In this document: positions 10,813 through 34,705 of the stretch, piece by piece
Position numbering within the stretch: the first letter of the stretch is position 1
Layout: each line of letters begins with the position of its first letter
Virus record (IMG/VR): IMGVR_UViG_3300035664_000043
Span: 1 to 35,002 of that record
Source of the DNA: a virus
Direction: 5' to 3' (one strand)
Length of the DNA stretch: 35,002 nt
The notes under the pieces: model-generated
What the model was told of the DNA's origin: nothing
The model's input: only the letters and a program-made list of their open reading frames with translations
Database searches by the model: none
Made by a program: the position numbers and the translations under genes

Positions 10813-13800
10813 TTAAATGCCAATCCTCCGACGAGTGCTAGGACTTTGCTGAAGCTTATCAATGGCCAAATTGGCTCCTTGCCGTGCTCCGTCACGAACG
10901 GCAAGCTTACGTGTTTCCATCATAGCCTGCTCTAATTGATCCCTACTGACGTATTCCACGTTGTTAATGGTGGTGGTCTCAAAGTTCATGGACAGTACGG
11001 GAGAAGCCATGCCGCCTCCGTTAGAGCTGCCTCCCATTTTGTCGCGGATGCTATCGCCTTGCATTTGCACGGGGATAGAGCGACCATCAGGCAGTGGCAC
11101 AATGGCTTCGTTGTACTTCCCTTCGCCCACCAGGCCAAGAGTGGGGCCTTGAACCATCCCTCCGTTTGCAAATGCCCTAACCGGGAACGGTTTCCAACCG
11201 CCAGAAGCAATGCCGCCATTGGCTCCAAATAACTTGCCAAATCCTAAAATCCCGCCGCCAACTCCCATCAAGATGCTTCCAATGCCCCCCAATACACTAG
11301 AGGTGTCTCCTTTCTCAATTTGCTTAATACCAGCAACAATGCCCATGGCAGCACCAGCAAGCATGCCCACGCCTTGCACAACGCCTCCCAATGACTGAAG
11401 AAGAGTGGAACCATTTTTGCTCGCATCTCCTGCGGCTTGAGCTGTTTTAACTGCAGCATCAACCGATGTGGCAGAGAAACCATTGACAGCCTCGCTGAAT
11501 CCTGTTAATGATGGCGTGGCATTTTGTAATCCTGTCGAAATACTGCCAATTTGTTCAGAGAAGCCAGAAAGACCAGCGCCAAAACCAACCCCCGTATCCA
11601 TGCCTTGCATAGTTGCTTGCAAGCCAGGCGAAAGGATGTTGGTGTCGAAAGTATTAAAGCCAGTCGCTGCTGTTCCAGCGCCCGCCCCTGTTGCCTGATT
11701 ATTTAATGCATTTGTAAGATTTTCAATAGCAGTTGTATTGGTAGTAGTGGCTTTGGTATTGTCATTTGTAGCTTGAACTGGATTCGTAGATGTAGCTTCG
11801 GTTGGTTTTTCTTTGTCTAGTTTTTCTAAATCTTTTTTAAATAAGCTTTCGATAAGTTTTCCGCTCACCACATCTTTAAAGAAATCTTCCACCGGCTTCA
11901 TTGTGAAGTCCAGGAAAATTGTCAGCACTCTATCTTTTAAGCCCGCTTGGAATTGTTCCAATGCATCAACGGCATCTTCGCCGCTAATAACAGCCTTCAA
12001 GAAGCCCTTGTAATCACGAGAAGTGTCATCAACAAAGTTGTCAATGATCTCGCGAGTAGCTTTAATGTTGTCGCGAACTTTTTCAAGATCAATGATTTCT
12101 TGAATCTTTTTCTCGCTATATCCTTCGCGACGCAATTCAATTCGCCGCCGTTCAGTATTATTTGCAGCACGAAGCAGCTCAATTTCCTCTTTGACAATCG
12201 CCAACTGTTTTTGTTTATTGCGAATAATTCCAGCAACTTCATCCTTTTGTTGTTTGCTCAACGTTGGAAGATCCTGAAGGATCTTGCGAATTTGCTCGTC
12301 AATCTTTAGGCGGTTGTATTCCTGAGTGGAAATGTAACCATTTTCATATCTAATATTTAATAATGTAGAGTTAATTTTTTCTTGCTCTCCGGCTATTTTT
12401 TCTGTATCTTGCGCGGCTTTATTGCGGTATTTTTGTTCAGTTGTTAAAAGCTCTATCCCTCTAATTTGAAGTTGATTGCGTAATTCTTGCAAATTATAAT
12501 CTAGTTGCTGAGCCGTCATTCCATCTTTAAGATAATCCGCCCTGTTCCCCTCAGCGTCTTCAATTTGCGCTTGAATAATAGCCATGTCAATCAATGTTTG
12601 CCGAAACTCGCCATAATATTCCAACATTCTTTCTGACTGGACCGTGCCGGGTGCAAGTGCCGCAGTTTCTTCCTTTGCGAGCTGCATTTCCGCCTTAAGA
12701 ACCGCCGCCCTCTGGGAGAAACGAGCACTTACAAGGTTTTCTAAACTAATCTTGCCCTTAGCCTTTCCTTCGTCCTCGCTTTCTCTAATCCTCTTCAACT
12801 CGGTTTCTTGTTTAGTCTGCTGCTTTAATGCAGTGTTAAGAGCGTTTTGTGTTTGGAGAATGCGAGTTTGCGCTTCCCCATATCCCTTTTGCGCGGCTTG
12901 TATATTTGCCTGAACAGCTCCTGGCGCTCCTACTTGCACTTGTAAGTTTGATCCTTTGCTGGTGCGCTGTCTCGCAAACGTCATATTTGATGCAAGCCCC
13001 AATGACTGAAGCTCTTGCGCTTGTGCAGCCGTCACCTCTCCCTGGCCAGCCTTGATTTTTTCCAATAGAGCTTGAGCATCTTTTAGTCTGACTGCTAATT
13101 TCTTTTCGGCAGCCAATGTGGTTTCCAGCCCGCCAACGTCTGCAGCCTGTCCTGCTGTTTTGACTGAATCTGCAAAGCTCAACATCTTTTGTTTTGCATT
13201 TTCGGCCTCCACCCCGGCTTTAATAAATTTCTCAATCAACATTGATAGGCCAACTAAAGCCACACCGATAATTGTTTTTGATCCCAAACTTGCAAGCGCT
13301 ATATTTAATCCGCGAATGGCGCCAGTTGTTACTGCTGCCGTAGTTCCAGTTAATGCCATAGTGCCTCGCACCGCAGCCAGGCGAGACATTCCCAAAGCAA
13401 GTTGTGTATTGAATAATAAGAATTGTCCAATATTTGAAATCAACGCAGCCCTTAGTAGCCCAAATGCAGTTGTCAGTGCATAGACAATTGGATACATTCT
13501 CGCTAAATAACCAAGCAACGGATCTGCCGCCAACGAAAGAGCAAATTTGGCCGCCATGCCAAGTGCAGTGCCAAAAGCTTGAACTGTAGGAATCAGCGAT
13601 TTTAGATTGGACAGAATTCCCTCAAAGCTTGGCTTTAAGCTTTCTAATTCTCTGGCAATTGCCATGCCTCCAGATGTTTTTGCGGCGGTTCCTTTGAAAA
13701 ACGCGTTAAAACCATCTGACAATGTTTTTAATTGACTGGATATTGGATTTACAAATACATTTAAAAATTGAACAGCGGCTGGTTCAAATGCTTGATAAAA

Positions 13801-15660
13801 AAGAGTGAGCGATGTTTGCATATTGTTAATTGCGCCTTGAAAGGTCTTGGCCGCTCCTTCAGCGCCTTTGCTGAACTTTGTATTAAGAACAATGCTCACA
13901 TTATTGAGCAAATCAACCATGGCGACACCTTTATAGCGTCCCGCTTCTAATTCTTTGGAGAATTCCTGAATAGCCTTTGGTCCTTTAAACCCTGCGGCTT
14001 CAGCGAAGATTGCCATTGCGCCGGGTAAAACATCGCCTAACTGCCCTTTCAGTTCTTCGCTCATCACCTGCCCTTTACTAGCCATCTGAGCAAAGGCATA
14101 ATTTACGCGATCAACTTTGTCGGCACTCATCCCGAAGGTGGCTGCTGCTTTGCTAATCCCAGTAAACAGTCCCCGAATTTCCTCTCCGCCAAAACCAGCC
14201 GGCTGCATGGAAGCATATAATTTTGTAAAACCATCGCGAGCAGATTGGAGGGGAATGTTATAGCGATCAACTAAATTAAGGATTAATTGGTTAGAGGCAG
14301 CAGCCTCTTTAGCGGTAGGCGAAATAGCAGCAAGCGTATTGTTGAAGGTTTGCAACTGTCCCACTGCATTGCTCACTTGAGCGGGAAAATCAGTGATAAA
14401 AGCCAAAGCCTTGTAAGCAGTACCAAACAGCAATACTTGCTTGGCGGCAAAACTAAATTCTTGCCCAAGTTCACGAATAGTTCCAGTGCCAGGCAGATTG
14501 ATGCCGCCAAGAGCACTGCCGAAACCACCCATGCCACGCATGCCACCCATGCCGCCGCCTCCTGACGGTGGACGAGGCGGCGGAGGGGGAAGAGGGCCAC
14601 CGATTGCCGAGGCTTGACTAATTTGCGTGGCTCGTTGCGAGAAGCCTAGAAAACTACCAGGCGTTCTACCCGATGGTTGCACTTGTCCTGCCTGTCTAGA
14701 AAAGGCAAGGAAACTGCCCGGCACTGCAGGATAAGCCTGTCCATATGGGCGAGAAACCATTCTGGGCTCATATCCTGACTGACCAGCAGCCCATGGAGCT
14801 TTGGATCCGTGAGGCAAAGGACCAATCGGGGAGGTATAAGCTCGCTGTCCAACCAGTCGCTGGCGCAGTGAGCCCACCGAAGGACCACCCATTCCGCTCA
14901 AGTCTGAAACCTTCGCCAGTTCAAACTTCAGCAAGGCAACAATTTTCCTGATCTCGTCAACTGACTTACTCTTGAACTCCTTCAGGCCGTCAAGAAAACC
15001 AATCTCTAAACCATCAGCGCTAAATTCGCCAAGCTGTTTAAATATTTTTGATGGTGATGCAATGCCAGTTGCACTTTTGAATGCATCGATAAATGACTTT
15101 GCGCCTTCGCGGCCATTTTCTTTGAGCTTAGGATCCAAGCCATTTGCCAGCCCTTGGGCAATGTCTCTCGTAATTGCGGGCACGCCGCTAATTATTGAAG
15201 CCCTTAATTCATTAACAGTTCCGCGCCCAACATCGGCCATGGGAATTTTGGCTTTTGCCATTCCCTGATACAAAGCTTCCAGCGCAGGCTTTGTTGCCCT
15301 GCCGAGCATTGTCGAGAAAGAACTTGCGTCTACTGTGCCAGCACCTTGTCCAGCAGCAGCTCTATTTGCAATTCCCTTGTTTTTCTGAACAGCATTGTCC
15401 AATCCTCGCAATGCCTTTGCGAGAGTGCCGGCATTTTTAATTTCTGCCGCTAAATTAGTCGCAACTTCTAGGCGATATGTTCTTTGGCTAATATTTCTTC
15501 CTAACGCATTAAGCTCATTTTGTACACTACGCCTATCAAATTGAACTTGCAGTTTCAATGGAGTGCCAGCAGCAGCCGCGCTAAGCCCCGTTAATTGTGC
15601 CCTAAAAAATGCCAGGTCAAGACTTACCTTAAGTTTAAGTTCGGCGTCTTGAGCTGCCAT
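10813..15660 (-). CDS. Tape measure protein (1615 aa)
   Basis: This is the largest gene in the window. Residues about 405-590 form a recognisable tape-measure domain (TMP_3-like) with the stretches NRYN-type IPLQSARDGFTKLYASM and MSEELKGQLGDVLPGAMAIF. At about residues 355-385 lies an unusual poly-Pro stretch followed by a Gly/Met-rich linker. Residues about 900-1240 are charged and predicted to be coiled coil. Near residues 1430-1490 are hydrophobic Gly-rich segments (GVGMLAGAAMGIVAGI) that may insert into the membrane during DNA entry. The C-terminus (RQGANLAIDKLQQSPSTRRRIG) matches a tail end seen in related phage tape measures. Gene length sets tail length; at roughly 1.5 angstrom per residue this implies a tail near 240 nm. 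Confidence 0.93.
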   Translation of the reverse strand: MAAQDAELKLKVSLDLAFFRAQLTGLSAAAAGTPLKLQVQFDRRSVQNELNALGRNISQRTYRLEVATNLAAEIKNAGTLAKALRGLDNAVQKNKGIANRAAAGQGAGTVDASSFSTMLGRATKPALEALYQGMAKAKIPMADVGRGTVNELRASIISGVPAITRDIAQGLANGLDPKLKENGREGAKSFIDAFKSATGIASPSKIFKQLGEFSADGLEIGFLDGLKEFKSKSVDEIRKIVALLKFELAKVSDLSGMGGPSVGSLRQRLVGQRAYTSPIGPLPHGSKAPWAAGQSGYEPRMVSRPYGQAYPAVPGSFLAFSRQAGQVQPSGRTPGSFLGFSQRATQISQASAIGGPLPPPPPRPPSGGGGMGGMRGMGGFGSALGGINLPGTGTIRELGQEFSFAAKQVLLFGTAYKALAFITDFPAQVSNAVGQLQTFNNTLAAISPTAKEAAASNQLILNLVDRYNIPLQSARDGFTKLYASMQPAGFGGEEIRGLFTGISKAAATFGMSADKVDRVNYAFAQMASKGQVMSEELKGQLGDVLPGAMAIFAEAAGFKGPKAIQEFSKELEAGRYKGVAMVDLLNNVSIVLNTKFSKGAEGAAKTFQGAINNMQTSLTLFYQAFEPAAVQFLNVFVNPISSQLKTLSDGFNAFFKGTAAKTSGGMAIARELESLKPSFEGILSNLKSLIPTVQAFGTALGMAAKFALSLAADPLLGYLARMYPIVYALTTAFGLLRAALISNIGQFLLFNTQLALGMSRLAAVRGTMALTGTTAAVTTGAIRGLNIALASLGSKTIIGVALVGLSMLIEKFIKAGVEAENAKQKMLSFADSVKTAGQAADVGGLETTLAAEKKLAVRLKDAQALLEKIKAGQGEVTAAQAQELQSLGLASNMTFARQRTSKGSNLQVQVGAPGAVQANIQAAQKGYGEAQTRILQTQNALNTALKQQTKQETELKRIRESEDEGKAKGKISLENLVSARFSQRAAVLKAEMQLAKEETAALAPGTVQSERMLEYYGEFRQTLIDMAIIQAQIEDAEGNRADYLKDGMTAQQLDYNLQELRNQLQIRGIELLTTEQKYRNKAAQDTEKIAGEQEKINSTLLNIRYENGYISTQEYNRLKIDEQIRKILQDLPTLSKQQKDEVAGIIRNKQKQLAIVKEEIELLRAANNTERRRIELRREGYSEKKIQEIIDLEKVRDNIKATREIIDNFVDDTSRDYKGFLKAVISGEDAVDALEQFQAGLKDRVLTIFLDFTMKPVEDFFKDVVSGKLIESLFKKDLEKLDKEKPTEATSTNPVQATNDNTKATTTNTTAIENLTNALNNQATGAGAGTAATGFNTFDTNILSPGLQATMQGMDTGVGFGAGLSGFSEQIGSISTGLQNATPSLTGFSEAVNGFSATSVDAAVKTAQAAGDASKNGSTLLQSLGGVVQGVGMLAGAAMGIVAGIKQIEKGDTSSVLGGIGSILMGVGGGILGFGKLFGANGGIASGGWKPFPVRAFANGGMVQGPTLGLVGEGKYNEAIVPLPDGRSIPVQMQGDSIRDKMGGSSNGGGMASPVLSMNFETTTINNVEYVSRDQLEQAMMETRKLAVRDGARQGANLAIDKLQQSPSTRRRIGI

Positions 15661-15695: not shown

Positions 15696-16163
15696 TCATT
15701 GTTCTTGATTACGTCCGGCAAAAGCCTTTAATTCATCCGCCAGCAAGGCAATCACTCTTCCGTCCATTTTGCGCGTCTTCATTAATCGCTGAAGAACAAT
15801 CAAACTTGCATCTGTCAAGCCACTATCTTTCTTGATCGACTTCGTGTCAAACGGCAAGAAGTCCTCTGGCTTCACTTTCGACTTCTTACCGGCCATCATG
15901 CCAGCAGCCATTGTGCCAAACTTGGCAATGGCAATGCTTTGCACGTTGTATTTGGCTATATCATGCTTATCCAAATATTTCAATGCCCGCTTCACGTCCT
16001 CAATGGGCTGCAGGCCAAATTGATCTGCGTTCCATCGAGGATCATGCATATCTGACGATGAAAGACGAAAATAAATTTCGTTCCAATCTGTCAAATTTTT
16101 CAATTGTCTTCTAGCAAGACTTTCTTGCTGTTCAGCTACTGAGGAGAATTCCTCTTCGTCGCT
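15696..16163 (-). CDS. Tail assembly chaperone T-like extension, made by -1 frameshift
   Basis: This reading frame has no credible start of its own (only a TTG at 16103, without a ribosome site). It is open back to 16163, where it joins the upstream chaperone frame by a -1 slip on A AAA AAA. The extension would add 155 residues (SDEEEFSSVAEQQESL, then KNLTDWNEIYFRLSSSDMHD), giving a 325-residue fusion. This is the G/GT arrangement conserved in long-tailed phages, in which the fusion recruits tube protein to the tape measure. The stop at 15696 lies 35 bases before the tape-measure ATG, the usual place. Slip efficiency cannot be read from sequence. Confidence 0.8.
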   Translation of the reverse strand, partial: SDEEEFSSVAEQQESLARRQLKNLTDWNEIYFRLSSSDMHDPRWNADQFGLQPIEDVKRALKYLDKHDIAKYNVQSIAIAKFGTMAAGMMAGKKSKVKPEDFLPFDTKSIKKDSGLTDASLIVLQRLMKTRKMDGRVIALLADELKAFAGRNQEQ

Positions 16164-16672
16164 TTTTTTGCCGTTGCCACCTCCTGCGCTTCGGCAGTTT
16201 GTTCGGCAGTGATAAATTCAACCACCTTTGCCACGTATTTACGCGGCAGCGCCTTCGTATCGTCTAATTCCCAATCAGTAAGATCCTGCCAATCCCCGTC
16301 AACCATGCCTTGCCCGCGAGAACGAATGAAGGCCGTAACCATGCGGGCATTAGTGCTTTCCATAGATGATCCGCTGGTGATCATGCTCAGCGTTTCTTCC
16401 GTATAGTCCGCCAACAGTTCCGCTTCAGTAATGGAGCCACCGCCACCTTGCAACAAATTAAATGCTTCGTCAAGGCCAATGCCCTTGGCTGATGCAATGC
16501 GTTTGGCAAGTTGCACGGCACGAATGGTTGCCTGACTTTGCAGTTTGCTAATTTCCTCTTGCTCAATGGCCTCAGCAACTAGCCAGCCGCCATATTTCTT
16601 AAGGCGCAGATCCGGCAGCAATTCAAAGTAGTCTTCAGCTTTGGTCTGAACTAGGAAGCTGTATTTGCTCAT
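16136..16672 (-). CDS. Tail assembly chaperone, G-like
   Basis: The 178-residue, mainly helical protein (AIEQEEISKLQSQATIRAVQ, then WQDLTDWELDDTKALPRKYV) lies directly before the tape measure, where long-tailed phages encode the short tail chaperone. Its C-terminus (ATAKKATKRNSPQ) contains the slippery codons GCA AAA AAA at residues 168-170, so a share of ribosomes should continue into the T-like frame. The gene overlaps the preceding 87-residue ORF by 38 bases. The protein itself is probably absent from the mature virion, as in lambda. Confidence 0.8.
   Translation of the reverse strand: MSKYSFLVQTKAEDYFELLPDLRLKKYGGWLVAEAIEQEEISKLQSQATIRAVQLAKRIASAKGIGLDEAFNLLQGGGGSITEAELLADYTEETLSMITSGSSMESTNARMVTAFIRSRGQGMVDGDWQDLTDWELDDTKALPRKYVAKVVEFITAEQTAEAQEVATAKKATKRNSPQ
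16141..16169 (-). promoter_or_regulatory. Programmed -1 frameshift site of the tail chaperones
   Basis: Seven A residues at 16169-16163 (minus strand) sit in phase as (GC)A AAA AAA, an X XXY YYZ heptamer. After an 8-base spacer comes a perfect 5-bp hairpin with a 4-base loop (GAGGA ATTC TCCTC, 16154-16141). The -1 frame is open on both sides and leads into the T-like extension; the 0 frame stops at 16136. Phase was checked by codon position. This is the standard layout of lambda-type chaperone frameshifting. Confidence 0.85.
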
Positions 16673-19564: not shown

Positions 19565-20467
19565 TCAGGCGTTGGCCTGAACGTAAATAACGCTCTTGGG
19601 ATAGTACAGAGCCACACCACCAACGCGAGCATGGGCGGGAACGATAAATTCCAGACCGCGCTGTTGAGGGGGGAACAGCTCCAGAGGCTGAGGAACGTGC
19701 AGTTGCACTTTCTCAGGATCACGCTTGTACACCACCATACGGTTGGTGTTCAGCACGCTGTTATCAGCATCCAGTTGGTTGATGGGCTCAACGTTGCGGA
19801 TGTAAGGGTTGGTACGCAGGAAGTACTCAAGCACGGTCACGTCCGAAGAATCGGAGTTCCGGGTGGTGCTCACTTTGTTGTAATCTTCCCACGCCATCAG
19901 AATGGTGTCGGGCTGCTCCTTCATTTTGGAAGCGTTGATAATGGCGGTCACGCCATAGTTCAGCAGTTCCAGCATTTCCTGGGCAGTGGCAGTGCTGAAC
20001 CACTTGTCAGCAGCAACCACATCCACGGTGGAGTTGTTGAAGAAACCAGACAGACCCACGGTGCTCTCACCGAAGAAAGCGAGATCTTCCACTTTCTCTT
20101 CGTAAGCACGACGCACAGCAGCAGCGCGACGCTGCTCCAGGGCGATATTGGCCATTTGAGCAGCACGCAGTTCCTGCACGGTGTAGCCGAAGCTACCGCC
20201 GAAGGAACGGATGTTGATGCTCTTCTCGGTCTGGCTGATGTCGGCACGGGGCAGATCATCAGCAGCATCAGCGATCAGCTTAAACTCACCAGTGGCATCC
20301 ATGATGCGGTAGGTGAAGGTCTGAGCGCCAGGACCGGCTTCAGAAGTTACGGGCAGCACAGTCGGATATTTGATATCCGCATACTGCACTTCAAACACTT
20401 GGGGGCGGATGAACTCAAGCTGACGCTCAAGAAACAGACCCGCTTCATCCATACGGAATTCAGACAT
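19565..20467 (-). CDS. Major capsid protein, DUF2184-like HK97 fold
   Basis: The 300-residue protein starts MSEFRMDEAGLFLERQLEFI. DISQTEKSINIRSFGGSFGY is followed by TVQELRAAQMANIALEQRRA and EDLAFFGESTVGLSGFFNN. This order, with AWEDYNKVSTTRNSDSS and a C-terminal VGGVALYYPKSVIYVQA, matches DUF2184-type capsid proteins. A strong AGGAGG lies 9 bases before the ATG, as expected for a high-copy product. The upstream neighbours are a cement protein and a protease-scaffold. The shell-forming role is well supported. Confidence 0.9.
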   Translation of the reverse strand: MSEFRMDEAGLFLERQLEFIRPQVFEVQYADIKYPTVLPVTSEAGPGAQTFTYRIMDATGEFKLIADAADDLPRADISQTEKSINIRSFGGSFGYTVQELRAAQMANIALEQRRAAAVRRAYEEKVEDLAFFGESTVGLSGFFNNSTVDVVAADKWFSTATAQEMLELLNYGVTAIINASKMKEQPDTILMAWEDYNKVSTTRNSDSSDVTVLEYFLRTNPYIRNVEPINQLDADNSVLNTNRMVVYKRDPEKVQLHVPQPLELFPPQQRGLEFIVPAHARVGGVALYYPKSVIYVQANA

Positions 20468-22305: not shown

Positions 22306-22587
22306 ATGATGTTCCTGGCAAAGAGCAACGCCGATGTGCTTAAAATGCCGCACCAGCAGGCGCGATTGCTCATTGCTCAGCGTGTCAAGGACGCTCGCTT
22401 AAATAGCGGCCTTTCACAAAAGGATGTGGCTGAAATTCTCCATATCAGTCAAAGCTCTTATTCACGCATTGAACGCGCCACTGTCCCGCCAGACTGCGTG
22501 CAAATTCGCACCCTCAGCGGCCTCTATGGGATAAGCGTGTTATGGCTGATGGGCTATCCGTCTTTTATCGCCCATACGCGACATTAA
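22306..22587 (+). CDS. XRE-family DNA-binding regulator
   Basis: The 93-residue protein carries one Cro/C1-type helix-turn-helix at about residues 35-56 (GLSQKDVAEILHISQSSYSR), with the conserved Q-x-x-V/L-A and S-x-x-S pattern. The C-terminal part (IRTLSGLYGISVLWLMGY) matches the tail of XRE domains. The chosen start is the ATG at 22306, at the edge of the divergent promoter region. The long upstream open frame on this strand only overlaps the opposite gene. It is one of few plus-strand genes in the head run, and overlaps the convergent 102-residue gene by 4 bases at its end. It may control the adjacent head operon; that is inference. Confidence 0.8.
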   Translation: MMFLAKSNADVLKMPHQQARLLIAQRVKDARLNSGLSQKDVAEILHISQSSYSRIERATVPPDCVQIRTLSGLYGISVLWLMGYPSFIAHTRH

Positions 22588-22892
22588 TCTTCGTCGTCAT
22601 CTCCGCGAAGCTCGCTAAGTTGACTTTCAATGCCTTCCATGATATAAGCTTTAGCCATCGCCTCAATTTCAAACGTGAGAAACTTGGTGGGGTCAAAATG
22701 AGGGTCGGGCTTTTCGTAAACACTCATCACATAGATGTGAGTTTCATCTAAGCGACCATTCTTAAAGCATTGCTTTTCAACGAGTTCCCACTGGGAAGTA
22801 TTGCGGTGTTCGTTTGCGGAAAGAATGGCTAGCGCCTTCAAAAGACCAATGCCTTCGTCTTCTTCTTCGATGACGCGCACATATTCGCTCAT
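22584..22892 (-). CDS. Small acidic protein (102 aa)
   Basis: The ORF reads MSEYVRVIEEEDEGIGLLKA and ends in a run of acidic residues (LSELRGDDDED). The middle (LDETHIYVMSVYEKPDPHFD) suggests a compact alpha/beta fold. It overlaps the frameshift-domain ORF by 4 bases (ATGA) and the convergent XRE gene by 4 bases at the stop. I do not recognise a family. An accessory role near capsid assembly is possible by location only. Confidence 0.6.
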   Translation of the reverse strand: MSEYVRVIEEEDEGIGLLKALAILSANEHRNTSQWELVEKQCFKNGRLDETHIYVMSVYEKPDPHFDPTKFLTFEIEAMAKAYIMEGIESQLSELRGDDDED

Positions 22893-23242
22893 TGGTCTTT
22901 TTGACGACTTTCTACCATCTTAATAATGCGATTTGCCCACGCCCTACCGGCATCGCCGCCCCATAGCAGCCAAGCAATATAACCAGCATCGTTTTCTCCG
23001 CCGCTCTTGTTTTTCTCGTGGCGAGAAAAGAAAGCAGCCATACGCTTAATTGTGGCGAAGCTTACGGCTCCACCACCAGCTAGATCACTAGCGCGAGCCA
23101 CGCCGCTACCAATGCCTTGCTTCCCGGCCTCTTGCGTAGTTAGTCCGCCTTTTCCATGCTTCTTGCGAAGCTCTAGGCCGCGACGGGCGGCGCTTCTAAC
23201 GCCAGCAGGAGGGGAGAAGCTTTCTGCGTCGCCCCTCAGCGC
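22889..23242 (-). CDS. C-terminal domain reached by -1 frameshift from the DUF6496-like gene
   Basis: This frame is open from 23242 to the stop at 22889 and codes for 117 residues. It includes SFSPPAGVRSAARRGLELRK, RASDLAGGGAVSFATIKRMA and GYIAWLLWGGDAGRAWANRI. This whole pattern (PPAGVR...ARARDL...RM..FF.RHE...GGDAGR.WA) is a recurrent phage domain of unknown function. The only ordinary start inside is a GTG at 23101, which would cut the domain in half. The codons before it are conserved domain sequence with no ATG, GTG or TTG. The full domain is therefore best explained as the tail of a 210-residue frameshift product. Chance mutation is the alternative. Confidence 0.75.
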   Translation of the reverse strand, partial: ALRGDAESFSPPAGVRSAARRGLELRKKHGKGGLTTQEAGKQGIGSGVARASDLAGGGAVSFATIKRMAAFFSRHEKNKSGGENDAGYIAWLLWGGDAGRAWANRIIKMVESRQKDQ

Positions 23243-23266
23243 TTTTTTCCGCAGGAGGCATCCTCC
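23209..23266 (-). promoter_or_regulatory. dnaX-type programmed -1 frameshift signal
   Basis: The minus strand shows three elements. The slippery heptamer A AAA AAG (23248-23242) lies in phase as GGA AAA AAG. GGAGG, acting like a Shine-Dalgarno, lies 13 bases upstream (23266-23262). A 6-bp hairpin GAGGGG/CCCCTC, extended by an inner AGAA/TTCT stem (23237-23209), begins 4 bases downstream. The 0 frame stops one codon after the heptamer. The upstream GGAGG can also pair with CCTCC (loop 3 bases). Phase and open frames on both sides were checked by position. Confidence 0.8.
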
Positions 23267-23520
23267 ATTTCTTCTTCCATGCCTTCTTCCTCTTCTTCTT
23301 CTCCAATGAGGGTCATGAAATAATTATCCCAATATTCATCGCTCTTGCCCTGACGGCTCATGCCGGCTTCTGAAAGGGCAATTGCAATGGCCTGCTTACG
23401 ATTCTTTACAGGTTTTTTGTCGCTGCCCTTTAGCGTGCCAGCTTTGAATTCACGCATCACCTTGGCCACTTTGGCCTGTTTTTCCTTCTTGGTCATGGTC
23501 GTAATGCTTTCTTTAAGCAT
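23236..23520 (-). CDS. DUF6496-like small phage protein; 5' part of frameshift pair
   Basis: The 94-residue product from the ATG at 23520 contains KVAKVMREFKAGTLKGSDKK followed by PVKNRKQAIAIALSEAGMSR, the hallmark of DUF6496-like proteins. A TTG two codons earlier and an ATG ten residues on are alternatives. The last 20 residues are very acidic (EEEEEEGMEEEMEDAS) and end in Lys/Arg at the slippery site. A -1 slip would join it to the PPAGVR domain and give 210 residues. Function is unknown. It follows the glycosyltransferase cluster and precedes the capsid genes, so a head-associated role is possible. Confidence 0.78.
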   Translation of the reverse strand: MLKESITTMTKKEKQAKVAKVMREFKAGTLKGSDKKPVKNRKQAIAIALSEAGMSRQGKSDEYWDNYFMTLIGEEEEEEGMEEEMEDASCGKKR

Positions 23521-23522
23521 AC

Positions 23523-24239
23523 TCAATGAATAAATCCTATCGGCGCTGTTTCAATAGTCATGCCAGGAAAGAATTTGTCACGGTATAAAACCAGGCCAGT
23601 TAGCAAGCGCTCTGCAATGAACGCTAATGCTCGCCTGTCATAACCTTCAATGGAAAGAAAATGTTCTTTATGCTTTTCCCAAATGGGCAATAAGCAAACA
23701 AACAGAGTGGTCATAAATTGCTTGTAATATTGCTTCGGACCGCGAGCCATGTTGCAACCAATAAACAGATTTTGCGCCCATAATTTGTCAATCTCTTCTC
23801 GCGTGAATACCCAGGCGCCGGTATCAGCAAGTTCGCGAGTGATGGCAGGAGCGTCAAACTCTGAATGGCCGCCATAGAACTGCTGCTCCAAGGTGCAACT
23901 AAACACAGCCGGCTCTGGCACGTAAAGCACATCCTCCGCATACCATCCGGACTTAGGCTCTATCCAATTCCGACGATATTGGGCATTGCCAATGTTTGCT
24001 TCTTCAGCATTTAGCAACATCCAATGCACACAAGATAGTTCTCCCCATCGCCTATTTAAAGAGGAAATAAACGCTCCTTCGTCGTCAAACATATAACCTT
24101 GCTTCCGCAAAGCCCTGCGCTCTGCATCGACAATGTTGCAGGCCCCGCCCATGATCGGGATGATTTTTGATTGCGCTTCATAACGAACCTTTTCGTTTTG
24201 AATGCAAACTGCATAGATGGTGTAATCAGACGGTTTCAT
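23523..24239 (-). CDS. DUF4422-family glycosyltransferase
   Basis: From the ATG at 24239 (MKPSDYTIYAVCIQNEKVRY) the protein has 238 residues. The stretch PIMGGACNIVD, then ISSLNRRWGELSCVHWMLLN and ANIGNAQYRRNW, matches the DUF4422 core (N-I-S-x-x-N-x-x-x-x-E-L-x-x-x-Y/H-W, then I-G-x-x-H/Q-Y-R-R). Members act in capsule or O-antigen sugar transfer. The longer open frame upstream overlaps the neighbouring gene and adds nothing recognisable. It overlaps the GT32-like gene by 14 bases. The sugar and acceptor are unknown. Confidence 0.8.
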   Translation of the reverse strand: MKPSDYTIYAVCIQNEKVRYEAQSKIIPIMGGACNIVDAERRALRKQGYMFDDEGAFISSLNRRWGELSCVHWMLLNAEEANIGNAQYRRNWIEPKSGWYAEDVLYVPEPAVFSCTLEQQFYGGHSEFDAPAITRELADTGAWVFTREEIDKLWAQNLFIGCNMARGPKQYYKQFMTTLFVCLLPIWEKHKEHFLSIEGYDRRALAFIAERLLTGLVLYRDKFFPGMTIETAPIGFIH

Positions 24240-24948
24240 ACACTTGCCTCGCAGCCCATAGTTCGTTGTAATTGTTGACGCTCTTGGCGCCCAGTCCAGT
24301 GAGGTCGCCGCCTCCGGCTGGCTTGCTCCACGCCATGATAGTGCCATCGGGAAGCACAAACGCCCTATTCTTCTGTTCGTGCGTGGGCGTCAGCTCCAGA
24401 TAGTCTCCATAAACAAAATCTGCCTGACTTCCGTTAGACGCCAGCGCCTTGCCAAGAAGCGTGGGGCCAGTGGGGCACAATGGTGTAATGCCGTAATACT
24501 GCTGCACGCAGTTGGCCACAATCATTTCAATGGCAGCTTGTAATGCCTCATTATTGGGCTGAGAATACAAAACAGTTGTGGCACAAGCCCAACTGGTATA
24601 GCTAAATCGCTGGATATCACGAAAGGCTAAAAATTTAATGCGATCTCCCACGTCCACAGCATTAACAGCGCGAATAGCAATATCGAAATACCAGCCGCCA
24701 AAATGATTGAGGAGACAGAAGCGCCCAAGATCAGCTTTATACGAAAAAGGACGTAACGAATCGTAAGCCCATAAAACGTGCTCACCATAAACAGAACCAA
24801 TGAAATCACGGAGTTGTTCATTGTTGTAAATGACATGATTGGCTTTAGGAAATACTGTATCAATAGTGCCAGTGGCATATTGAAGAAAAGGGGAAAGCTT
24901 TTCTTCTGGATCAGTGGTTAGGAAAATTTGAGAAATCTGCATGGCCAT
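24226..24948 (-). CDS. GT32-like glycosyltransferase with altered DXD motif
   Basis: The 240-residue protein starts at the ATG 24948, which overlaps the previous stop as TGATG. The core YKADLGRFCLLNHFGGWYFD, followed by IAIRAV, matches the sugar-binding region of GT32 (Gly_transf_sug), in which S-D-x-x-R-x-x-x-L-x-x-x-G-G-x-Y-x-D-x-D binds the nucleotide sugar and metal. Here the final D-x-D reads D-I-A, so the second Asp is lost. The usual C-terminal region, with TGPTLLGKAL, is present. It may be a weakened, changed or inactive enzyme. It belongs to the glycosylation cassette. Confidence 0.7.
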   Translation of the reverse strand: MAMQISQIFLTTDPEEKLSPFLQYATGTIDTVFPKANHVIYNNEQLRDFIGSVYGEHVLWAYDSLRPFSYKADLGRFCLLNHFGGWYFDIAIRAVNAVDVGDRIKFLAFRDIQRFSYTSWACATTVLYSQPNNEALQAAIEMIVANCVQQYYGITPLCPTGPTLLGKALASNGSQADFVYGDYLELTPTHEQKNRAFVLPDGTIMAWSKPAGGGDLTGLGAKSVNNYNELWAARQVYETV

Positions 24949-26165
24949 CAATCAATTTTTGCGGGAGTACCAAAGCCCTTGAATTCAGGCTCTTCTGGCT
25001 CCATGGTCAAAACTGTTTCCACTTGAGCCATCATCAGCTCCGTAATAACAGGCCAAGTGAATTCTTCAATGCGCTGCTTGCACCATTCGCCATCATCCTT
25101 TAATTGCTCTCGATCTTCGTAATACATTGTGAGCAGTTCGGCTAAATGATCTGGCGATGGCTGGCCACGGTCAAGGCCATAATTCCTGTCCACCTCCCAG
25201 CTTTCAATGGCAATGCGCGGCACGCCACTAAAGATTTCCTTGCAGCTCGTATGATCTGGCACCAACTGAGCCACGCCAGTGGCCGCATGTTCAGTGTTGA
25301 CCAAGCCCCAGCCTTCCCCAATGCAAGTGTTGATGCCAATGTCTGAAGCGTTATAGACCATGTTGAGCTGCTCAATAGTAAGACAATTGGCCGTCGAAAA
25401 GCTTGGACTCGTCAAAATAAGTTTGCCGGTTGGGTCGTAGCCTTCGTCTCTCGCTACGCGCTTAAACAACGGAATCAAATCCCACCCCATATCTTTGCTG
25501 CCCATATTTAGCCATAGTCTTGCATCAGGCTTGTCCTTGGCAAATTTGATAAAGCCCTTAATGGTTAAGTCAATGCGCTTACGGGGCTGGTTTCTATTGC
25601 CATTGAAAACAATGAAAACATCCGGCGGCACGCCCAGCTTTTCTCGACATTCGGCTTTGTCCATCGGGAAAAACTTGGTGAAGTCCGTGCCATGGCCCAT
25701 GATGCCAATCGGTCTTTCATAGCCAATTTTGCGAAGCTCCTTCACGCCAAATTCCGTATAAGTGGCCACGCCATCCCATTCGTTAATGGGCTCCAACAGT
25801 TCGGGAAACAAACCGTAGCTGTCAATTGGCGTATAAACAAAGAATTTGAAGCCGATGCTTTCTTTAAAAGCCTTAACAGCCTTCCATAAGCTGATGCCTA
25901 TCCAAATATCATTTGTCACCCATACCAAATCTGGCTTGATCTTTTGTACTAGCTCTCCAATGCGATGAGAGCCAAATGGATCGGAGCCATGCAGCATCGC
26001 CGGGTAGGTGTTGTATTTACGAGCTTCTTTGTCTGGATCGCCATGGTAGTTAACGGCCAACACGCTCACTTCATGCTCCTCGGCCAATGCGGGAAGCAGG
26101 TTTTCCGCCACACGGCCAAAGCCAGTTTCCACAAAAGCATCGCCGCAATACAGAATTTTTGCCAT
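24948..26165 (-). CDS. GT4-family glycosyltransferase
   Basis: The 405-residue enzyme has an N-terminal Rossmann half starting MAKILYCGDAFVETGFGRVA and a C-terminal donor half with FNGNRNQPRKRIDLTIKGF. The E-x7-E motif is visible in GEGWGLVNTEHAATG. Both are hallmarks of GT4 (glycosyltransferase B fold). The chosen ATG at 26165 starts at the family N-terminus. Two further in-frame ATGs at 26189 and 26192 add MMAKILVFV, a near copy of the true start. None has a strong ribosome site. It probably adds a sugar to a glycan of the phage or host. Confidence 0.85.
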   Translation of the reverse strand: MAKILYCGDAFVETGFGRVAENLLPALAEEHEVSVLAVNYHGDPDKEARKYNTYPAMLHGSDPFGSHRIGELVQKIKPDLVWVTNDIWIGISLWKAVKAFKESIGFKFFVYTPIDSYGLFPELLEPINEWDGVATYTEFGVKELRKIGYERPIGIMGHGTDFTKFFPMDKAECREKLGVPPDVFIVFNGNRNQPRKRIDLTIKGFIKFAKDKPDARLWLNMGSKDMGWDLIPLFKRVARDEGYDPTGKLILTSPSFSTANCLTIEQLNMVYNASDIGINTCIGEGWGLVNTEHAATGVAQLVPDHTSCKEIFSGVPRIAIESWEVDRNYGLDRGQPSPDHLAELLTMYYEDREQLKDDGEWCKQRIEEFTWPVITELMMAQVETVLTMEPEEPEFKGFGTPAKID

Positions 26166-26200
26166 GACAAAAACAAGAATCTTCGCCATCATAAGCCGCG

Positions 26201-26228
26201 TTTATACTATGGGCGCAGGAGACGAACC
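26201..26228 (+). promoter_or_regulatory. Candidate -10 element and ribosome site for the plus-strand sugar pair
   Basis: TATACT at 26203-26208 is a good -10, and AGGAG lies 7 bases before the ATG at 26229. No convincing -35 is found at 16-18 bases upstream. The site divides a divergent pair and would give this plus-strand pair its own expression within the minus-strand run. Confidence 0.35.
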
Positions 26229-26927
26229 ATGCGACTATCACCAACTTCAATGCGCTTCTGCATTAGCACTTGCCAGAAGTTTGCAGCGCATACATTGCAG
26301 GTGATCGTACCTTCCCTACTCCAAAACGGCATTGCCAAAGAGCATATTTTGATTGTCAATGGTGGATGGGAAGATTCCCTGGCAATCACGGACTACGAAG
26401 GCGTGCCAATGCTGTTGACGCCGCAAAACTCTTTTGAATACACTCCTCTCATTGAAATTGTCGATAACAACATCCACAGCGACTATTGGTTTCTCCTGCA
26501 CGACACCTGCATCGCTGGCCCCTTGTTTTACGAACTTGCCTTGTCGTTGCCAGTAGACAGTCCAGAGAAAGTGGCCCTCAAGGGCACGCCATCAATGAGC
26601 ATTGGCCTGTATCGCATGGACTACCTCCTACGCCACAAGGAACGCTTGATGGCCATCCGAAACATGGACTGCTCGCCTGAGGCCCTGCAAAGATGGAAGC
26701 AATGGGGCGTGCCAAATGAGGACTACATGCTCTGGAAATTAAACGACGCACCCACTCACGTTTACCATCCTGATCGCCATGGTCCCGACGAATGGAACTA
26801 CCAAGGCCATTCAGACGCATATGGCACTGGTTTTGCCCGTCGCATTGAATATTTTCCCCAGTTAGACCTCTATAAAGCCAAAAGCAATTGGCAAGGCGTG
26901 CAGCCAGTCCTCTGTCTTGACATCTGA
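26229..26927 (+). CDS. Glycosyltransferase-like protein (GT-A type)
   Basis: The 232-residue protein begins MRLSPTSMRFCISTCQKFAA, and its start is fixed by AGGAG. It carries LLQNGIAKEHILIVNGGWED and SDYWFLLHDTCIAGPLFYEL, where H-D-T sits in the usual metal and nucleotide-sugar position of GT-A enzymes. PNEDYMLWKLND later provides the acceptor-side acidic residues. This matches GT-A proteins of phage and bacterial glycan clusters. Its stop overlaps the next start by 1 base (TGATG), making an operon pair. The long upstream open frame on this strand is antisense to the GT4 gene. The sugar is unknown. Confidence 0.65.
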   Translation: MRLSPTSMRFCISTCQKFAAHTLQVIVPSLLQNGIAKEHILIVNGGWEDSLAITDYEGVPMLLTPQNSFEYTPLIEIVDNNIHSDYWFLLHDTCIAGPLFYELALSLPVDSPEKVALKGTPSMSIGLYRMDYLLRHKERLMAIRNMDCSPEALQRWKQWGVPNEDYMLWKLNDAPTHVYHPDRHGPDEWNYQGHSDAYGTGFARRIEYFPQLDLYKAKSNWQGVQPVLCLDI

Positions 26928-27901
26928 TGAAAAATATTGCCATCATCGGAGGCGGCTGGGTGGGCTGTCATCTAGCCAAAGAGTTCAGCAAAGAACACAA
27001 CATTACGATTTACGAGCGCAATGATCATTTGATTAGCGAGGCATCGCTGATCAATCAGAATCGCTTGCACTATGGCTATCACTATGCACGAAATGGAAGG
27101 ACGCGCCAATTGTGCCGCACTACTTTCCATGCGTTCTTAAAAGACTACGGTCATCTTGTTGAAGACATTACGGACAATTTGTACGCTGTTTCGCAAGACG
27201 AAAGCTTATTGGACGACACAACAATTTTGACAATTTTTGATGAGTGGCCGCATCGCGTGGTTTACGCCCCGTGGCTAGACAACACTTCCTGTGCCATTGC
27301 CACGCCAGAAAAATTTATCAACCCTGTATTGGCAGGAGAATATTTTCAAGCCCTTCTCTCGCCATTTGTTGTGCATGAAGAAATAGTTGCCAATGAACTT
27401 CCCCTTTTACAACAAGACTATGATTTAGTGCTTGATTGCACTAACAACTTTCTTTTGAAGCCAGAAGAAAATTGCTTTTTTGAGCGCGTCATGATGATGC
27501 TCTATACCATTGAACGGCCTCTTCCCTTTGGCGCACTTACTTACATTGACGGAGAATTATTCTCCCTCTATCCCTATGGTGAAGGGCTTATGTCTTTGAG
27601 CCACGTAAAGCATGGGATTTTGTCGCAAAGCGCTCGTCCTGTTGACAATTACGACGATCACGACTACAATCTCCATCGCTTAAAAATGGAGGATCATGCA
27701 AGGCAATATTGGCCGGACTTTAATTTATACCTAAGACCCGTGGCGCCAGTGTGCTCTACCAAGGCCAAGATTAAAGACAGAAGTGCCAATCGTATGCCTG
27801 TTTATCGCCAGCGTGATAACTTTGTTTCTATTTTTACTGGCAAAATTCAAGGTGTCTATGCCATTAAAAACCACATTCAAACCATTATCAATCAGGCATA
27901 G
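26927..27901 (+). CDS. FAD-dependent oxidoreductase (DAO-like)
   Basis: The 324-residue protein starts MKNIAIIGGGWVGCHLAKEF, a classic GxGxxG dinucleotide-binding motif. NQNRLHYGYHYARNG follows, close to the NQ-x-R-x-H-x-G-Y-H-Y-x-R motif of FAD oxidoreductases in the DAO superfamily. The C-terminal VSIFTGKIQGVYAIKNH would close the FAD site. It is co-translated with the GT-A-like gene. Its 3' end overlaps the convergent TIM-barrel gene by 10 bases. It may oxidise a sugar or amino-sugar, which is inferred from the neighbours. Confidence 0.78.
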   Translation: MKNIAIIGGGWVGCHLAKEFSKEHNITIYERNDHLISEASLINQNRLHYGYHYARNGRTRQLCRTTFHAFLKDYGHLVEDITDNLYAVSQDESLLDDTTILTIFDEWPHRVVYAPWLDNTSCAIATPEKFINPVLAGEYFQALLSPFVVHEEIVANELPLLQQDYDLVLDCTNNFLLKPEENCFFERVMMMLYTIERPLPFGALTYIDGELFSLYPYGEGLMSLSHVKHGILSQSARPVDNYDDHDYNLHRLKMEDHARQYWPDFNLYLRPVAPVCSTKAKIKDRSANRMPVYRQRDNFVSIFTGKIQGVYAIKNHIQTIINQA

Positions 27902-28635
27902 ATTTGCCTGAACAGTGGATATTCACGAAGATAATTTTTAGCCTTAAAAAGTTCGCGAATAATGCCAAGCTGGTAACCATGCATGCCCAGCATTTCTCTA
28001 ATTTGCTCGTGCTCATATTTATTTAATAGTGGTCCATTATCAGTGTCGCTGATATGCACGTGAGCAATGTAAGGAAGATAATGTCCCAATATCTTTTTAG
28101 GGCTATCGCCCTCTAGCCATGCGTTGTTTGTATCGAGCATGGTCTTGACATTTTTCAAATTGTAATAATCAATTAAATTGACAATTTCACCAACAGTGTG
28201 AAAATATTTTCCGCCAAATGCCCGTGCCACTGGTTCAATGCACAGAATGGCATCATTGGCTTCCAGAATCTTGTCCATGCGGCGAAGCACGTTCATTAAA
28301 CAGGCAGGACTTCCACGCCGGAGACCGGGACTGCCAAGAACAAAGCGCTTAATTCCCATAAAAGAACCTAGCCTAATAACGCGCAATAAATGCTCTTGAG
28401 TGGCCTCGGTATTTTCAAAACTTTCTACATTGCTGCCGAAAAACAAAGCTTGAGCAGAATATGCCCAAAGACCATATTCTTCCCTATATTTCTTTGCTAA
28501 GTCCGCATAATCAAGGCGTTGCTGAAACACTCGATGAGGAACAATCTCCAGCAGATTAAACGCCCCGGCATTGGCGCTTAAAATTTGCTCCTCCTGTTCT
28601 GGCTCCCAGCCAATCGCACTAATTCCGATAAGCAT
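27892..28635 (-). CDS. TIM-barrel sugar isomerase/epimerase-like
   Basis: The 247-residue protein begins MLIGISAIGWEPEQEEQILS and has AP-endonuclease-2/sugar-isomerase features. MGIKRFVLGSPG and ILCIEPVARAFGG hold the metal-binding Glu, KTMLDTNNAWLEG holds the Asp, and IAHVHISDTDNG holds His and Asp. GGAGG lies 9 bases before the ATG at 28635. An earlier open stretch of 27 codons overlaps the epimerase gene and is not needed. Overlap with the epimerase is 17 bases. It probably acts on a sugar in the cassette. The substrate is unknown. Confidence 0.75.
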   Translation of the reverse strand: MLIGISAIGWEPEQEEQILSANAGAFNLLEIVPHRVFQQRLDYADLAKKYREEYGLWAYSAQALFFGSNVESFENTEATQEHLLRVIRLGSFMGIKRFVLGSPGLRRGSPACLMNVLRRMDKILEANDAILCIEPVARAFGGKYFHTVGEIVNLIDYYNLKNVKTMLDTNNAWLEGDSPKKILGHYLPYIAHVHISDTDNGPLLNKYEHEQIREMLGMHGYQLGIIRELFKAKNYLREYPLFRQIYA

Positions 28636-29314
28636 TGATAAACGCCTCCATTTTTGCAAGCATTTCTTCTTTGCCGTATTTATAACTCCCGCAATGATAG
28701 TCAATACGGGAGCCATAACTCACTTTAGCTTCAGGAAAAAAACGATCAAGAATTTCCTGCGTTTCAATGGGCTCAGAAAATAAATCGTAAATGCCGGCCC
28801 CTTCAATCGCCAGGGTATCTTGCCATAAATCGTTTAAATCGTACCATTGGTAGGCAGAATTGCCATTGATTTGACCAACATTATTATTGTTCAATAAATC
28901 AAACAAAACGTTCTTTTTAATGCGCTTGTGAAATAATGCGGGAAGACGAATAATCTTTACAACGCTATTCGGAAACATCGCTTTCACTAATAGCTCAAAC
29001 ACGCGCCTTACGCGCCCGTAATCTAAATTGCCAAAAGAATGCTTGTAAATATCAATGGTGGAATAAAGAATAATTTCCTTCGTTTCCCAGGGGCGAATAG
29101 TGGCTGCAATTTCTTGCATGTTGAAGAAATCTTTTGCCGGATCTTGATTGGCCTTCCATTTCTCCGCCGGAAGACACGCCAGATACAACTTATCAATCGT
29201 GCCATTTAGTAATGAAGCGCGATACAAATTGCTGGAATTGTACGAATGGTTGAACTGCTGATGTTCCTGGAGAATGCCGCCAATCAGGCCGGTGTTTCCA
29301 ATCAAAACATCCAT
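28619..29314 (-). CDS. NAD-dependent epimerase/dehydratase-like protein (short)
   Basis: The 231-residue protein starts MDVLIGNTGLIGGILQEHQQ, a GxTGxxG Rossmann motif. EIILYSTIDIY fits the strand that carries the catalytic Ser, but the usual YxxxK is replaced by DYGRVRRVFE, with Tyr present and Lys changed to Arg. Length is shorter than typical sugar-nucleotide epimerases. It may therefore be a binding-only or altered enzyme. It begins 2 bases after the head-morphogenesis stop, so sugar genes and head genes share a message. Confidence 0.65.
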   Translation of the reverse strand: MDVLIGNTGLIGGILQEHQQFNHSYNSSNLYRASLLNGTIDKLYLACLPAEKWKANQDPAKDFFNMQEIAATIRPWETKEIILYSTIDIYKHSFGNLDYGRVRRVFELLVKAMFPNSVVKIIRLPALFHKRIKKNVLFDLLNNNNVGQINGNSAYQWYDLNDLWQDTLAIEGAGIYDLFSEPIETQEILDRFFPEAKVSYGSRIDYHCGSYKYGKEEMLAKMEAFINAYRN

Positions 29315-34631: not shown

Positions 34632-34705
34632 GCCCTTGTAGCCCAACCGGCAGAGGCAAGCGACTTAAAATCGCTCCAGTGTGGGTTCGACTCCCACCGA
34701 GGGTA
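34632..34705 (+). tRNA. tRNA with anticodon UAA (Leu by codon), class I body
   Basis: The 74-base tRNA folds with a 7-bp acceptor stem (GCCCTTG with CGAGGGT, two wobble pairs), a short D arm with GG at 34649-34650, and an anticodon stem AGCGA/TCGCT with loop CTTAAAA. The T arm is GTGGG-TTCGACT-CCCAC, and the discriminator is A at 34705. The anticodon TAA (34666-34668) reads UUA, a Leu codon. The variable region is only five bases (CCAGT), whereas normal tRNA-Leu has a long variable arm. CCA is not encoded. The host enzyme may or may not charge it with Leu. Confidence 0.85.

Follow-up and report, generated by a model that had tools for sequence, protein, structure and literature searches.

Does a programmed frameshift carry ribosomes past the stop of the short DUF6496-like gene that lies near the capsid genes in a cyanophage-like virus, and what would the longer product be for? 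The gene lies on the minus strand of IMG/VR record IMGVR_UViG_3300035664_000043, and the 35,002 nucleotides of that record that were analysed are called the window here. Judging from sequence comparison, it is very probable that programmed -1 ribosomal frameshifting appends a mobile, presumably head-associated domain to the DUF6496 protein. The original prediction of a dnaX-type -1 frameshift is strongly backed by conservation and switching of the slippery heptamer, covariation in the downstream hairpin, the missing start of the second domain and the existence of natural in-frame fusions.

Table 1. Coordinates of the frameshift gene and its signals in the window
Feature	Position	Strand	Remark
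0-frame ORF (DUF6496 domain and acidic tail, 94 aa)	23239..23520	-	ATG at 23520; a CGC codon precedes the stop
0-frame stop TGA	23238-23236	-	
GGAGG, Shine-Dalgarno-like	23262..23266	-	13 nt upstream of the heptamer
Slippery heptamer A AAA AAG	23242..23248	-	X XXY YYZ phase with the 0 frame; alignment A1
Stimulatory hairpin (predicted), outer stem GAGGGG/CCCCTC plus inner stem	23210..23237	-	4 nt after the heptamer
-1 frame, 117 codons, helical domain RGDAESFSPP...GGDAGRAWA	22892..23242	-	phrog_2859 match
-1 frame stop TGA	22891-22889	-	
Next gene (102 aa)	22584..22892	-	ATG overlaps the -1 frame stop as ATGA

The 0-frame product passes the gathering cut-off (24) of Pfam DUF6496 (PF20106) with 38.1 bits and an E value of 2e-9. 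An alternative start at ATG 23496 would give 86 aa; it is the methionine of MTKKEKQ and the start used by most relatives. At its 3' end the frame reads ...GCC TCC TGC GGA AAA AAG CGC TGA, and it does stop one codon past an in-phase A AAA AAG (23248-23242), while a ribosome that enters the -1 frame at the heptamer reads GCG (23242) CTG AGG GGC GAC and so on. The -1 frame is open throughout its length, and no ATG, GTG or TTG precedes the second domain in it; the first such codon, GTG 23101, lies inside that domain and opens an ORF of 70 aa. The predicted product lengths of 94 and 210 residues (93 + 117 = 210) were borne out by reading the frames, and folding returned the expected GC-rich hairpin 4 bases past the heptamer. 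The second part matches phrog_2859 (function not assigned) with an E value of 3.5e-17 and is about 80% identical to its counterpart in Synechococcus phage S-CBS4.

A pattern search for GGAGG N5-15 AAAAAAG found two occurrences in the 35-kb record, one here and one in a tail chaperone candidate (15696-16672, minus strand; heptamer at 16169-16163, an A AAA AAA site). An ORF of 178 aa in this candidate terminates after GCA AAA AAA GCG, which is preceded by GGAGG; its -1 frame leads into the next ORF, directly ahead of the tape measure gene, as is classical for tail assembly chaperones. The DUF6496 gene does not adjoin the tape measure (10813-15660), and as this separate candidate exists elsewhere in the window, a tail assembly chaperone identity was rejected for the DUF6496 gene. 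Two other observations concern the record as a whole. Positions 23523-29314 hold glycosyltransferase- and sugar-metabolism-like genes (DUF4422, GT1/GT4 types and epimerase-/isomerase-like ORFs, recognized by eye), a block that interrupts the structural module between the portal and head genes and has a smaller version in S-CBS4. A tRNA-Leu (TAA) lies near the record end (34632-34705, plus strand); it might be a phage tRNA or mark the border of an integration site.

Using the second part as query against viral contigs, 80 loci were first listed and 386 relatives were found in all. Six further scans of the close family added loci, and 164 distinct close-family loci were tallied, comprising 132 shifted loci (second part in -1 relation), 29 in-frame loci and 3 with apparent single-base indels; these counts cover related sequences, are not independent and are inflated by kinship. 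By sequence comparison, X XXA AAG stands at the exact junction in all 132 shifted loci (98 A AAA AAG, 29 G GGA AAG and 5 C CCA AAG), with zero cases among them of a heptamer outside X = A, G or C. This conservation is far above chance, and the restriction to these three bases fits the prediction of tandem re-pairing for bacterial Lys tRNA. In the E. coli measurements of Sharma et al. (PMC4066793), which covered all 64 heptamers, the most efficient with stimulators were C CCA AAG, G GGA AAG and A AAA AAG, on which Atkins et al. (PMC5009743) agree; the three heptamers of the relatives are exactly these three. Moreover, the 0-frame stop lies 0-1 codon past the heptamer in 120 of 122 shifted loci, and the isolate S-CBS4 has A AAA AAG, the hairpin and the gene order as in the window. 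Asked whether homologues form a single ORF or keep the heptamer and hairpin, the family gave both kinds, and the two parts were not found always as separate genes with their own starts and no heptamer.

The homopolymer at the junction naturally raises the suspicion that a sequencing or assembly indel in the A run has split one ordinary gene, and single-base variants do occur, with A7 in L073 and A5 in L215. However, A6 recurs in 98 distinct loci from many metagenomes as well as in the S-CBS4 isolate, and the frame relation is unchanged in 34 loci that carry GGGAAAG or CCCAAAG and thus lack a long homopolymer. The stop within one codon and the hairpin selection specific to shifted loci (see below) also speak against an indel, and such an explanation is refuted for the family and is next to impossible for the window. 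Apparent single-base indels at or near the frameshift site were seen in L167, L215 and L225. L215 looks like an isolated indel, judging from L222, which is nearly identical in the domain and has the normal A6. L073 is counted among the 29 in-frame loci, and its tail is typical of shifting genes; it is probably a one-base change or an error in a shifting gene.

In place of ribosomal slippage, the fusion could also arise when RNA polymerase slips in the A run, which is possible in principle at the A6 of the A AAA AAG loci. However, slippage of RNA polymerase usually needs longer runs, runs of equal bases at the GGGAAAG and CCCAAAG sites do not exceed four, and the phase of the heptamer and the spacing of the hairpin match ribosomal slippage. 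We regard slippage during transcription as very improbable.

If the second domain were a separate gene, translated from its own or a reinitiation codon, the heptamer would be a coincidence. GTG 23101 might be taken for such a start, S-CBS4 is annotated with two genes, and an independent start exists in a distant group (Limnohabitans phage DC31 type), where an in-frame Met stands near the domain start in 58 of 58 loci and the DUF6496 part is absent in the loci read. However, initiation at GTG 23101 would remove the first helix of the domain. Among the 132 shifted loci, 93 contain no ATG, GTG or TTG before the second domain, and 23 do not contain even CTG, ATT, ATC or ATA there. Independent translation would also leave the conservation of both heptamer and hairpin unexplained, and we give it very little credence. 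In S-CBS4, gp018 and gp019 were deposited as two unrelated hypothetical proteins, and the internal start annotated for gp019 (L082 8305-8613; HQ698895.1 13217-13525) cuts off the first part of the domain.

The original prediction also included GGAGG 13 bases upstream of the heptamer. The motif is present in the window, but as a conserved part of the signal it did not stand: no Shine-Dalgarno-like motif was found within 22 nt upstream in 40 of 124 relatives, and its position varies in the others. An essential role, tested over the relatives, was thus not upheld. Upstream Shine-Dalgarno stimulators are not obligatory for frameshifts in general. Because of this absence and variable position, GGAGG may be a helper in the window and does not appear to be a defining part of the signal.

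The downstream hairpin is better conserved. The 39-nt fold of the window has an energy of -18.1 kcal/mol. In 99 distinct shifted sequences, 97.6% of the cells of the 8-bp stem (AGGGGNGA/TYNCCCCT) are paired, with 47 doubly changed cells, and none of 500 shuffles reached as high a pairing. The covarying pair joins the third base of a Gly codon with the first base of a Ser/Ala codon (A-U in 42, C-G in 37 and U-G in 8 of the 99 sequences), while in in-frame relatives the covariation is absent and, with one exception, the first base of the Ser/Ala codon is T. The mean energy in shifted loci is -16.4 kcal/mol versus -9.6 kcal/mol after synonymous recoding, and in in-frame loci -8.6 versus -7.2 kcal/mol. 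The stem Arg codon is AGG in 115 of 117 shifted loci versus 9 of 24 in-frame loci, although AGG is a minority Arg codon elsewhere in the second domain (228 of 1566); the corresponding figures for the AGG/GGGG arm are 115 of 117 versus 9 of 24 and 8 of 24. Among well-supported independent contrasts, a compensatory pair change was found in 5.4 of 6 and the reverse in none (p about 0.03), while the contrast of arm against state has 4 well-supported pairs, too few to reach significance alone. In the window, however, the covarying pair of the hairpin is a C-U mismatch, which counts against the frameshift reading. From the above, the enrichment of the AGG/GGGG arm in shifted loci and the compensatory A-U/C-G pair indicate that the hairpin is under selection at the RNA level in shifted loci.

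The in-frame loci carry both parts as one ORF, usually with an acidic linker and with no heptamer, and these lineages indicate that the short product is not needed everywhere. A tree was built from the second domain without the hairpin columns. On the best tree, which is poorly resolved in places, the heptamer type has at least 28 state changes, and 10 changes are needed between in-frame and shifted states, 4 of them forced by well-supported branches. The tree is silent on whether the shifted or the in-frame state came first. In distant phages, the second domain has its own start or is fused to protease, portal or capsid genes. Only one relative was found in cellular genomes, in a Gemmatimonadetes MAG (L393 3996-6302), where the second domain forms part of a 768-aa protein encoded immediately before a portal-like gene; because this gene adjoins, the relative is probably a prophage or a phage contig.

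For the structure of the fusion, an AlphaFold2 model of the in-frame fusion L102 (mean pLDDT 85) contains a helical N domain (residues 3-66), a disordered acidic linker (70-78) and a C domain (about 81-189) that is predicted to be all-helical, with pLDDT mostly above 79. The second domain has no match in Pfam or NCBIfam and no Foldseek match in the PDB at E <= 0.001, a sequence search of solved structures gave nothing convincing, and the best VIA-align Z against the PDB, 3.9, has little meaning for a helical domain. Among predicted viral structures, the C domain recurs in prohead proteases, portal proteins and XkdF-like proteins. Polypeptides annotated as capsid protein begin with it in S-CBS1 and Roseobacter phage CRP-406, portal-gpF proteins of haloviruses contain it, and in Vibrio phage 1.123.O it forms a gene of its own between head morphogenesis and the next gene. 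In both the window and S-CBS4, the frameshift gene lies ahead of DUF2213 protease, cement and capsid genes. Stand-alone copies in the jumbo phages PaBG and SCTP-2 lie outside obvious head modules, which counts against a head role; DNA binding by the PaBG copy is an annotation only. The second domain is most likely a head-associated, mobile module: this is the best guess because of its fusions to protease, portal and capsid proteins and the neighbouring head genes, and it is uncertain because of the PaBG and SCTP-2 copies.

The shift might also affect the gene that follows. An ATGA overlap of the -1 frame stop with the start of the next gene is present in 83 of 124 shifted loci and in 26 of 29 in-frame loci, and the next gene starts without a clear Shine-Dalgarno sequence, as do many genes of this virus. 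Unshifted ribosomes terminate about 350 nt before the next gene, so the shift may dose that gene also. It could even be that the shift is real but serves chiefly to set the dose of the downstream 102-aa gene through translational coupling, with the fusion protein not its main purpose. The stop/start overlap in most loci and the weak start signal of the next gene would suit such a role, but the second domain shows strong conservation of its own, in-frame fusions have the overlap just as much, and a Shine-Dalgarno sequence is missing from many other genes of the virus. Dosing of the next gene as the main role is therefore unlikely, though less so than the alternatives weighed above.

The preferred reading, frameshifting that makes a fusion protein, would proceed as follows. 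Most ribosomes would make the DUF6496 domain with its acidic tail and stop one codon past A AAA AAG. The GC-rich hairpin 4-5 nt downstream would hold back a fraction of them, which would re-pair one base back; both sites hold Lys codons, and the AAG codon would re-pair as AAA. The shifted ribosomes would continue for 117 codons and yield the 210-residue protein, in which a disordered acidic linker leads to an additional helical domain. The likely outcome would be that a fixed minority of the DUF6496 protein carries the head module; via the ATGA overlap, translation of the next gene might be coupled to shifted ribosomes. We tentatively extend this to a group of aquatic phages, in which a selected -1 frameshift might dose the mobile, hitherto uncharacterised head module onto the DUF6496 protein, with several switches between frameshift and constitutive fusion, and ATGA coupling might set the expression of the next gene; this wider scheme is a speculative proposal.

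These relatives amount to a natural experiment, with the three best heptamers, swaps among them, a covarying hairpin and a hairpin relaxed in in-frame fusions. The annotation can also be corrected, since pipelines divide the gene in two and lose the beginning of the second domain, for which S-CBS4 is an example. No literature naming DUF6496 was found, and the gene pair was not found reported as a frameshift in the literature on cyanophage and head-gene frameshifting, which was partially covered and gives weak evidence of novelty. The original prediction regarded a head-side case as new. This gene and domain pair is apparently unreported, but head-side frameshifts as such are known (T3/T7, A2, Listeria), and the gene adds to a short list of frameshifts in the head region of tailed phages.

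Compared with known systems, the signal resembles that of E. coli dnaX, with A AAA AAG, a downstream stem-loop and, in the window, an upstream Shine-Dalgarno-like element. Unlike in dnaX, the Shine-Dalgarno element is unconserved here, and relatives replace A AAA AAG by other heptamers. The shift in dnaX gives the shorter product, whereas here it would give the longer one. The reverse arrangement is called rarer (PMC5009743). Lambda G/GT (G GGA AAG) is alike in that a -1 shift near the end of the short gene yields a minority longer product, and heptamer types are shared; however, the present gene lies between glycosyltransferase genes and the head protease and belongs to a different protein family. 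Frameshifts in capsid genes have been described for T3/T7, Lactobacillus A2 and Listeria phages (PMC5009743). Like the gene studied here, T3/T7 gp10 and the genes of Lactobacillus A2 and Listeria A118/A500/PSA are head-region genes extended C-terminally by frameshift, but what is extended there is the major capsid protein, and the added domain is often Ig-like. An Ig-like frameshift of a capsid protein was rejected for the window, where the base is DUF6496, the capsid protein is encoded at 19565-20467, and the extension is helical, not beta. S-CBS4 gp018/gp019 is a direct homologue that differs in its annotation as two hypothetical proteins. The closest parallel in logic is the promiscuous Ig-like domains, mobile domains that phages add to a range of virion proteins, either in frame or through a frameshift (PMC5009743). 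However, the domain here is unrelated, and its signal, kept over at least 132 loci with covarying RNA and heptamer swaps, is not one that a single phage landed on by chance.
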